From Sphingomonas sp. LM7 (GTDB taxonomy: Bacteria > Pseudomonadota > Alphaproteobacteria > Sphingomonadales > Sphingomonadaceae), in the NCBI RefSeq assembly GCF_002002925.1, contig NZ_CP019511.1:1550001-1614000 (forward strand): a stretch of DNA of 64,000 bases. The letters run 5' to 3'. A program made the position numbers and the translations under genes. The notes under the pieces are model-generated. The model saw only the letters and a program-made list of their open reading frames with translations, made no database searches and was not told where the DNA came from. Below, one piece after another: positions 19,721-28,231 of the stretch. Position 1 is the first letter of the stretch. Each line of letters begins with the position of its first letter.

Positions 19721-19814
19721 CTGCCCTCACCCTTCCCACCGCTTCGCGGCGGGCCCCTTCCCTCTCCCATCGGGAGAGGGAGGGAGGCGCGGAGCGCCGG
19801 AAGGATGAGGGCAG
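19721..19814. repeat. Palindromic repeat with nested hairpins (family C, solo copy)
   Basis: Outer 16-bp arms at 19721-19736 and 19799-19814 pair with one mismatch. Inside are a CCGC/GCGG stem, a central 9-bp stem (CCCTCTCCC with GGGAGAGGG, 19760-19780) and a GGCGC/GCGCC stem. The order C-rich segment, GC hairpin, GGCCCCT, then CTCCCAT hairpin is the same as at the right end of the DUF559 cassette (25626-25689). It fills the RND-OMF junction. Confidence 0.75.
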
Positions 19815-25226: not shown

Positions 25227-25689
25227 CCCTCCCCCTTGATGGGGGAGGGTTGGGTGGGGGTGACCTCTCCGCTAGGCTGCGCGCTGTGAAGCGGGTTCCA
25301 CCTCTCGGCAGTACGGCCCGCGCACGCGCCGCCCGCAAGCAACCAACCGACGCAGAACAGGCACTATGGACGCTGCTCCGTAGGGGCTTCCCAGACCCCC
25401 ACTTCCGTCGCGAGGTCAATTTCCGCCAGTATCGCGCCGATTTTGCCAGCCATCGCGAGAAGTTGGTGATCGAAGCGGATGGCGGACAACATAGCCCGGA
25501 AACCGATGCCGACCGAACCGCGACTATCGAAGCCGATGGCTATCGCGTGCTGCGGTTCTGGAACAACGATATCCTCGCCAACCCCGAAGGGGTCGCAGAA
25601 ACGATAGCGCTCAGCTTGCGACACGGTCACCCTCATCCTCCAACGCGCCGATGCGCGCGGGCCCCTCCTTCTCCCATCAAGGGAGAAGG
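25227..25689. mobile_element. Hairpin-flanked cassette carrying a DUF559 nuclease gene (family C, gene-bearing copy)
   Basis: The left end is a hairpin with 9-bp arms CCCTCCCCC and GGGGGAGGG and loop TTGAT (25227-25249). The right end is a hairpin with arms CCTTCTCCC and GGGAGAAGG and loop ATCAA (25667-25689). The loops are reverse complements, so the ends are inverted repeats. Inside each end lies a G-rich stretch ending GGTGACC (left, 25250-25264) or its complement GGTCACCC (right, 25625-25632). The DUF559 frame begins just inside the left end. No target-site duplication was obvious. Confidence 0.6.
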
Positions 25690-26320
25690 GTTATTTGACG
25701 CAATCGCTAACGCTTCACTTCGTCGGCCAGACCGCGAGGCTGGTTTCGACGAGCCGTTCGAGCTCTTCGTGGCTCGCCCCTGCCCCAGCCTGGAGCGACA
25801 GCCCCTGGAGCAGTGCGCCGAGATAGCCGGCGAGATCCTCGGCAGTCATATGCTCGGGAAGCTCGCCATCCGCCTTGGCCTTGTCGAAGCGCGCGATCAG
25901 CGCGTCCATCGACGATTTGCGACGAGTGATGACTTCTTCGCGGATCGACTCGGCCTCTACACCGCAAGCGACCGAGCTGATCACGCGCAGGCAGCCGCGG
26001 GGTTCGCAATCGCTGGCCTGCATCGCCAGCGCGCCGCGCAGCAACCGGTCGGCGACGCCGCGCGCGGTCGGCGCGTCGAGCGCCTGCGACATGTAGCAGA
26101 GCTTCTCGCGCTCGTAGAGGTCGAGTGCCTTGCGGAACAGCGCCTCCTTGTTGCCGAACGCGGCATAGAGGCTAGGGCGCGTGATCCCCATCGCATCGGT
26201 CAGGTCGGTGAGCGAGGCGCCTTCATATCCCTTGCTCCAGAACACGCGAAGTGCCTGGGCGAGCGCCTCATCGACGCAGAATTCGCGCGGGCGTCCTTTG
26301 GGAGCATTGCAGATCGCTAG
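25286..26320 (+). CDS. DUF559 / Vsr-like endonuclease-domain protein, C-terminus running antisense through the TetR gene
   Basis: From a GTG at 25286 the first about 115 residues form a DUF559 domain (PD-(D/E)XK fold): TDAEQALWTLLRRGFPDPHFRREV, then FRQYRADFASHREKLVIEADGGQH with the acidic Asp and Glu-x-Asp pattern, and DGYRVLRFWNNDIL. Such proteins are usually about 120 residues and resemble very-short-patch repair nucleases. Here no stop follows the domain; the frame passes the right terminal hairpin and runs 600 bp antisense to the TetR gene. The true product is probably the domain plus an accidental tail, or the gene lost its stop. Biological role unknown. Confidence 0.6.
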   Translation: MKRVPPLGSTARARAARKQPTDAEQALWTLLRRGFPDPHFRREVNFRQYRADFASHREKLVIEADGGQHSPETDADRTATIEADGYRVLRFWNNDILANPEGVAETIALSLRHGHPHPPTRRCARAPPSPIKGEGLFDAIANASLRRPDREAGFDEPFELFVARPCPSLERQPLEQCAEIAGEILGSHMLGKLAIRLGLVEARDQRVHRRFATSDDFFADRLGLYTASDRADHAQAAAGFAIAGLHRQRAAQQPVGDAARGRRVERLRHVAELLALVEVECLAEQRLLVAERGIEARARDPHRIGQVGERGAFISLAPEHAKCLGERLIDAEFARASFGSIADR

Positions 26321-26326
26321 TTTCAT
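25715..26326 (-). CDS. TetR-family regulator, probable repressor of the RND operon
   Basis: A 203-residue TetR protein. The N-terminal HTH reads GYEGASLTDLTDAMGITRPSLY followed by AAFGNKEALFRKAL, a textbook TetR DNA-binding domain. The C-terminal ligand domain resembles the TetR_C subgroup with SDCEPRGCLRVISS. The ATG at 26326 is preferred to the longer frame since MKLAICNAPKGRPREF is the normal beginning. A degenerate copy of the efflux operator overlaps its own start codon. It is therefore likely to repress itself and the efflux operon 0.9 kb away; the DUF559 cassette has been inserted between them. Confidence 0.85.
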   Translation of the reverse strand: MKLAICNAPKGRPREFCVDEALAQALRVFWSKGYEGASLTDLTDAMGITRPSLYAAFGNKEALFRKALDLYEREKLCYMSQALDAPTARGVADRLLRGALAMQASDCEPRGCLRVISSVACGVEAESIREEVITRRKSSMDALIARFDKAKADGELPEHMTAEDLAGYLGALLQGLSLQAGAGASHEELERLVETSLAVWPTK

Positions 26327-26338
26327 AATGATCGGTAT
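26325..26338. promoter_or_regulatory. Degenerate TetR operator at the regulator's own start
   Basis: On the minus strand this reads ATACC-GATC-ATTAT. One arm matches the efflux operators exactly; the other keeps 3 of 5 bases. It covers the start codon, consistent with autoregulation. Confidence 0.45.
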
Positions 26339-26449
26339 ATAATCACAAAGTGTGGAAAAATCACTAGTATTAACGCGTAGGCGGACAATGAGGCCCAACC
26401 GTGGCCGCACAAAGAGGGTTGCCCGTGCGATTATGCAACCTTATGCACT

Positions 26450-28113: not shown

Positions 28114-28231
28114 CCCCTCCCTGAAAGGGAGGGGCCGGGGGTGGGTGCGAGCGAAGCGAGCTCTCGCTAACGGCGGAGCGCGCCCCTACGGGACGCGCAC
28201 CCACCCCCATCCCCTCCCTTTCAGGGAGGGG
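28114..28231. repeat. 118-bp element with inverted terminal hairpins (family C, gene-less copy)
   Basis: The left hairpin has arms CCCCTCCC and GGGAGGGG with loop TGAAA (28114-28134); the right hairpin has the same arms with loop TTTCA (28211-28231), the reverse complement. Inside the ends, GGGGGTGGGTGCG at the left is matched by CGCACCCACCCCC at the right. Two more short stems lie in the centre. The architecture equals that of the DUF559 cassette without the gene. Confidence 0.8.

Follow-up and report, generated by a model that had tools for sequence, protein, structure and literature searches.

What is a gene for a DUF559 nuclease doing between two inverted hairpins in a sphingomonad genome, and could the enzyme be what moves them? 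The first-pass annotation of the window (the whole 64-kb stretch of DNA that was analysed) had proposed that the gene and the two hairpin elements enclosing it, at 25227..25689, form a nuclease-associated mobile repeat in which DUF559 occupies the place held by RAYT proteins in REP systems. The enclosed gene is borne out by the sequence, by a Pfam match of the window ORF to DUF559 (5.4e-28) and by our motif finder, and the substitution for RAYT is supported by flank tests and by enrichment of the repeats near DUF559 genes. We consider it likely that DUF559 genes and the triplex-type repeats that surround them constitute one mobile nuclease-repeat system, and the recurrence of the arrangement across many bacteria suggests that the enzyme spreads long-unexplained repeats around genomes.

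The window cassette and the code of its ends

Each end of the cassette (Table 1) had been described as a hairpin followed inward by a G-rich segment ending in GGTGACC. The hairpins are present and GGTGACC is found inward of both, but the conserved unit is a three-arm motif of triplex type rather than a hairpin with a G-rich segment. Each end comprises a pyrimidine arm, a loop, a purine arm, a linker and a purine-rich third arm, and the third arm is the mirror of the first purine arm, with G opposite G and A or T opposite A. Because the third segment mirrors the purine arm, the elements are class II intrastrand-triplex motifs (TM); as far as sequence can tell, the arm pattern is the code of the class II (purine-motif) intrastrand triplex, and we infer that it would fold as such in cells. 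The TM_ECO triplex is reported to be stable in vitro by CD and NMR, and the cited sections of the same paper report no support for stable triplexes in cells (Holder et al. 2015, PMC4666352).

Table 1. Positions of the cassette, its parts and the gene-less sites in the window
Feature	Position	Strand	Detail
Left hairpin	25227-25249		CCCTCCCCC-TTGAT-GGGGGAGGG
Left end, three-arm triplex motif	25227..25260	+	finder and sequence
Arms of the left end			pyrimidine arm 25227-25235, loop TTGAT, purine arm 25241-25249, linker TT, mirror third arm 25252-25260
GGTGACC, inner border of left end	25259..25265	+	sequence
DUF559 nuclease-domain coding region	25286..25618	+	GTG start at 25286; alternative start TTG at 25250
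GGTGACC, inner border of right end	25625..25631	-	sequence
Right end, triplex motif	25630..25689	-	hairpin 25667-25689, long linker, mirror third arm
Right hairpin	25667-25689		CCTTCTCCC-ATCAA-GGGAGAAGG
Gene-less inverted pair, left half, type B	28114..28146	+	finder; matches L004 and L005
Gene-less inverted pair, right half, type B	28199..28231	-	finder; matches L004 and L005
Gene-less element sharing a hairpin with 19759..19811	19724..19781	-	finder; best match L002 at nrdA
Gene-less element sharing a hairpin with 19724..19781	19759..19811	+	finder; best match L002

The TM finder, which seeks a pyrimidine arm, a loop, a purine arm and a mirror-image third arm, returned six elements in the window, all at the three places named by the annotation, and 0 elements in five first-order Markov shuffles of the window. 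It accepts no mismatch in the pyrimidine arm and hence overlooks degenerate copies; three sites in the window's own genome that carry its TTGAT hairpin are degenerate and escaped the finder. The two ends of the cassette are mutually diverged, with a flank-versus-flank score of 14.0, under the threshold of 15.0. There is no stop codon in the right end, and the DUF559 frame is open through the right repeat to 26320. This open frame (25250-26320, +) runs into the antisense of a neighbouring ORF (25715-26410, -) that is TetR-like on reading its sequence.

The order of letters in the third arm was assessed in a sample of 192 gene-flanking ends, in 170 of which a simple rule finds a hairpin (none in 22); the arms are asymmetric in 163 of the 170, and the order test was run on these. 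Downstream, a strict mirror fits better than a direct repeat in 99 of the 163 ends, worse in 10 and equally well in 54, and with A and T held equal the mirror is better in 90, worse in 17 and tied in 56. Against permutations of the same letters (158 ends), the median percentile is 0.963 for the mirror and 0.75 for the direct order, and a mirror match with at most one mismatch is found in 134 of these 158. Some hairpin changes are also echoed at the mirror position (e.g. L080, L053, L065 and L099). A direct repeat of the purine arm was rejected because its fit, although also above chance, is poorer than that of the mirror. A G-quadruplex in place of the triplex is disfavoured by arms with broken G runs (L080, L053 and L065), which keep the mirror match; the G-rich TM types may form one.

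In Pfam the window protein matches DUF559 and, weakly, MTES_1575, and the PDB matches by profile are to 3hrl ('Endonuclease-Like Protein', 3.8e-36), to 3r3p ('Mobile intron protein', E 1.6e-5), which we take to be I-Bth0305I, and weakly to Vsr (1cw0, E 0.021). An alignment of 43 sequences shows six residues with conservation of 90% or more, E24, D52, E63, D65, H69 and D74; the window protein has all of them, and they could fit an EDxHD-type motif. Among the PADLOC anti-phage models none matched the window ORF or E. coli YcjD at E 0.01. In the passages cited, YcjD is assigned to the PD-(D/E)XK superfamily (PMC1189080), a DUF559 gene of Thermosynechococcus is called an EDxHD homing endonuclease (PMC9403480) and VsrA of Caulobacter, also a DUF559 protein, is connected with DNA damage and the SOS response (PMC12907096).

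The annotation had also taken 28114-28231 for the same ends without the gene and 19721-19814 for a further gene-less copy. The first site shares the architecture but is of a different repeat type and lacks GGTGACC: its ends score 26.5 and 30.5 against DUF559 locus L004 of the same genome and 26.5 and 28.0 against locus L005, versus only 9.0 and 10.5 against the window's own gene locus. Elements are likewise present at the second, but its halves match DUF559 locus L002 best (39.0 and 36.0), versus 13.0 and 20.5 for the window's gene. By sequence, the two gene-less sites thus resemble other DUF559 loci of the window's own genome and not the window gene.

DUF559 genes and triplex motifs across bacteria

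We screened 41 genomes, of which 25 belong to the genus and 16 to the order, and analysed 96 of the 115 DUF559 matches in them. Usable flanks are available for 94 of the 96; two matches at contig ends, eight in long ORFs (used as controls) and nine fragments or low-ranked matches were left out. Inverted flank repeats score above 15.0, the 99th percentile of 601 random placements, in 83 of the 94 genes of these sphingomonads and relatives, the window locus being one of the 11 that fall under it, and in 8 of 407 control ORFs from 60 long loci. TM are found on both sides within 250 bp in 46 of 60 DUF559 genes versus 2 of 407 other ORFs. Hairpins scattered everywhere with no enrichment near DUF559, which the annotation had named as counter-evidence, are not what is seen: TM reach 4.25 per kb in the 250 bp next to DUF559 versus 0.0-0.2 per kb between 250 bp and 7 kb, with 0.41 per kb in the last distance bin, which pools everything past 7 kb. 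DUF559 domains within ORFs of 954-2063 aa have TM at none of eight loci in 17.5-18 kb. Chance or base composition as the source of the association is excluded by the Markov shuffles, the random placements, the other ORFs and the long-ORF DUF559 domains.

The window's own genome has eight PF04480 matches, five of which score above 15.0; below it are the window locus, L006 (11.5) and the fragment L007 (9.0), and repeat-like sequence is seen by eye beside L006 and L007. Orientation is nearly uniform: in a search out to 350 bp from each of the 96 genes, the closest TM on the left is + in 84 of 88 and the closest on the right is - in 69 of 73. In 62 of 73 genes of this genus and order set, the ORF has already entered or passed the right TM when it reaches its stop codon. 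Most DUF559 ORFs with a right TM therefore take their final codons from the repeat itself (62/73, and 46/52 in the named set below), and the repeat-encoded protein tails include PNPLPQAGEG, HPNPSPEGEG and PPPRAGED.

A scan of species genomes yielded 556 loci, the best 80 of which form the named set. TM lie within 350 bp in 71 of these best 80, on both sides in 44, and nine loci have none within that distance; together with the 83 of 94 genes that pass the flank test, this runs against the annotation's other ground for refutation, DUF559 genes elsewhere without such flanks, and makes the link between gene and hairpin, first noted at one locus, a general one. TM density in the best 80 is 4.30 per kb within 250 bp and 0.08-0.31 beyond. 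With gene ends approximate, the left TM of this named set is + in 57 of 63, the right TM - in 46 of 52, and the stop lies inside or past the right TM start in 46 of 52. Titles among the best 80 of the 556 include Omnitrophota, Nitrospira, Dehalococcoidia, Spirochaetota and Deltaproteobacteria.

Thirty further loci are the best matches supplied from the 116 of 299 genomes with a DUF559 match; half of them, 15, are positive by flank score, and in the remaining 15 TM occur at some position in the locus (about 3.3 kb or shorter), frequently paired to one side of the gene. The finder places TM within 400 bp of DUF559 on two Deinococcus plasmids, one Azospirillum plasmid and one Synechocystis plasmid, and further TM copies are seen by eye on the plasmids of these genera. 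DUF559 is also present in plasmid-collection records of Neisseria gonorrhoeae and Klebsiella pneumoniae (H7, H8, H18-H21), with the match split in two pieces in the Klebsiella records.

Across 299 Pseudomonadota genomes, with a strong DUF559 match defined as a best E below 1e-10 and the TM pattern as the published one, slightly widened, 51 have both, 39 DUF559 only, 14 the TM pattern only and 195 neither. This co-occurrence corresponds to an odds ratio of 18 (23.6 when stratified by family), and a reversed control pattern gave one match in all 299. E. coli has its DUF559 gene in ycjD, for which 3363 of 5426 genomes give a match covering at least 80% of the query, and TM lie downstream of it in the three E. 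coli strains read, two of them by eye.

Repeat types, copy number and occupied sites

On sequence similarity, each DUF559 clade has its own TM type. Protein and TM similarity are correlated over the 83 flank-passing genes (Mantel rho 0.56, p 0.002), among same-genome pairs (n=139, rho 0.49, p 0.001) and with pairs at the nrdA site removed (rho 0.55). Clades were cut from these 83 genes alone, which leaves other genes without a clade, and one genome can hold two genes of a clade, as the window's own does at L004 and L005.

Copy number is linked to the presence of the cognate clade, without exception in two of the three TM types and with exceptions in one. Among the 41 genomes, type-A TM are found only in the four with the type-A clade (G000 2, G004 9, G009 14 and G021 3), so that the 25 genus genomes divide into four with the clade and 2-14 copies and 21 without it and 0. 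Ends of the genes themselves are part of these counts: they make up both TM in G000 and, judged by position, two each in G004 and G009. Both type-A TM of the window's own genome are its gene's own ends, and there is therefore no gene-less type-A copy there. Type E is present in 7-94 copies in the nine genus genomes with its clade and in 0-4 in the 16 without, and its copy number does not track clades A or B. Type B is present in 8-118 copies in six genus genomes with its clade and in 0-179 in the 19 without; of the latter, 14 have 0 and the others 1, 1, 7, 13 and 179, the exceptions being G015 (179), G017 (13) and G004 (7). G015 has no DUF559 match above 44% identity to any type-B-clade protein, and the sequence of the DUF559 fragment that it carries at 149334 places this fragment in another clade, so this exception stands. 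A weaker cross-association between types A and B (p 0.007) follows from three of the four type-A genomes also having the type-B clade.

In 20 type-E pairs without a gene, taken from four genomes, the ends are near-identical but the flanks are, by eye, unrelated in all 20. At these 20 pairs no target duplication was noticed by eye, and most are preceded by a loose TAAG, not GTAG. The empty and occupied sites that the annotation looked to were found in part. Downstream of nrdA (L244-L267, 24 genomes, 1.1 kb read), DUF559 and TM are both present in 11 genomes and both absent in 13, the G004 copy of DUF559 being present only in pieces; what did not emerge was a clean insertion junction, and neither such a junction nor a target duplication was found at the sites compared between genomes or strains. 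The nrdA-site genes of the 11 genomes fall in at least two clades. The gene at this site looks inherited in place, not recently moved, and the site itself may reflect old inheritance or preference. After fliP, the window's own genome has a full cassette, and in G004, whose fliP is 88% identical, both the gene and TM are absent from the stretch read.

Two strain-variable TM sites of E. coli, yjdP-phnP and zntA-tusA, show no simple insertion and were rejected as clean insertion sites; the yjdP-phnP alleles look like partial deletions or unrelated sequence. Between sapF and fabI, ycjD and an efflux operon are found as alternatives at the same place, as the cited part of PMC12817139 also describes. 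Strains with and without ycjD thus differ by the efflux operon, and this is not a simple empty site. In strain Xuzhou21 the efflux operon replaces ycjD, yet TM are apparently still present (extra places).

Possible routes of spread and relation to known repeats

Movement by the nuclease is the best reading of the association, with cutting and transfer its presumed activities. The gene-bearing form has the order TM(+)-nuclease gene-TM(-), pyrimidine arms outermost; the gene-less form, two inverted TM that together span roughly 95-120 bp, would be mobilised in trans by the nuclease of the matching clade. Where DNA is single-stranded, at replication forks or in repair, an element end could fold into a hairpin or triplex; the Vsr-like nuclease would recognise the folded end and cut at or beside the fold, and the element could then be copied into or out of the break, either by excision and reinsertion or by homing-like repair. 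It is a real possibility, though we stop short of calling it probable, that DUF559 proteins are structure-guided mobilisers, the cognate enzyme reading the triplex as its signal for cutting and transfer, and that they created the TM_ECO/PIT elements of E. coli and of bacteria in several phyla. If true, this would be a class of mobile element in which a Vsr-like nuclease and a DNA triplex replace a transposase and protein-read terminal repeats. The cognate nuclease is a candidate origin for intrastrand triplex repeats, and DUF559, a widespread domain of unknown function, would gain a biological role. The question is testable in E. coli K-12, which carries ycjD and TM.

The same cassettes could arise by homing into existing repeats, if DUF559 cut TM and the gene were copied into the cut pairs by recombination between arms while something else made and spread the TM. 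Such homing would suit the profile match to the 'Mobile intron protein' 3r3p (E 1.6e-5) and the resemblance of gene-bearing cassettes to gene-less pairs with the spacer swapped for a gene; TM-bearing genomes without a strong DUF559 match do exist (14 of 299), and G015 has many type-B TM without the clade. We think it rather unlikely, as it leaves unexplained both the absence or rarity of types A and E in genomes without the cognate clade and the clade-specific TM sequences. A role in maintenance, in which TM arise by replication slippage and DUF559 repairs or processes them and prevents fork stalling, so that loss of the nuclease is harmful and both persist, strikes us as improbable. It predicts neither a gene bracketed in fixed orientation nor near-identical-ended pairs at unrelated sites, and G015 retains 179 type-B TM without the clade, whereas the distant Vsr profile match (E 0.021), the link of Caulobacter VsrA (DUF559) to DNA damage and the SOS response (PMC12907096) and, in the cited text, the instability of TM regions in E. 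coli (PMC4666352) speak for it.

There is scarcely any chance that TM are ordinary terminators or regulatory repeats at gene ends, with DUF559 as small cargo that happens to lie there. The location of TM between genes, as given in the relevant part of PMC4666352, and the many DUF559 ORFs that end in TM are what such a reading would lead one to expect, but TM bracket just 2 of the 407 other ORFs from these loci, long-ORF DUF559 domains have TM in 0 of 8, and the clade matching is also contrary. PMC4666352 also reports no regulatory trend and cites earlier work in which no promoter or terminator activity was seen.

Taken as a system moved by its nuclease, DUF559-TM suggests that the REPIN-RAYT lifestyle was reached a second time by independent evolution. 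As the latter is set out in the cited sections of PMC3116915, the two share inverted pairs of about 100 bp between genes, palindromic repeats, and a dedicated enzyme whose gene sits between repeats of the matching type, with enzyme and repeat diversifying together; DUF559-TM indeed has both the inverted doublets and a cognate gene bracketed in this way. DUF559-TM works like REPIN-RAYT but is not a member, differing in enzyme class and repeat tag: the RAYT enzyme is an IS200-like Y1 (HUH) tyrosine transposase (PMC3116915), whereas DUF559 is of Vsr/PD-(D/E)XK type, and the REPIN repeats are described as GTAG-tagged REPs, whereas here they are three-arm triplex motifs with a loose TAAG before most type-E pairs. 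RAYT genes are, in that account, single-copy (PMC3116915), unlike DUF559, of which two genes per clade are possible in one genome.

EDxHD homing endonucleases such as I-Bth0305I may be alike in their distant relation through 3r3p and, if DUF559 is mobile, in having genes that drive their own spread, but they are mainly phage-encoded and have long target sites, and the cited portion of PMC3943268 makes no mention of dispersed triplex repeats. CGTC/GTAG repeats are palindromic too, and the CGTC class is mostly alphaproteobacterial and apparently without a dedicated transposase; they are defined by GTAG or CGTC tags, however, and a third arm is unmentioned in the pages cited (PMC3733652).

TM_ECO/PIT elements, given in PMC4666352 as 3610 copies in 262 proteobacterial genomes with no known function or mobiliser, have the same architecture, inverted pairs and two linker types, and their published pattern, slightly widened, matches DUF559-bearing genomes. 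That paper reports, in the part cited, that mobility genes were never found nearby, and its main text uses neither the word nuclease nor endonuclease; in our data the motif goes with DUF559, in E. coli as well, where ycjD lies beside a TM. We found no link between DUF559 and triplex repeats in the open-licence PubMed Central literature, and a description may exist elsewhere. Many linkers at DUF559 ends exceed the 1-6 nt loops allowed by the published TM search. In gene-less pairs the linkers of the two ends often differ (TT or TTG versus CC, CT or AT), a difference that matches the type A/type B pairs of E. coli in the cited part of PMC4666352, and the two ends of a pair may have different roles. 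At L099 and L105, TM form rows near DUF559 with a spacing of about 75-285 bp.
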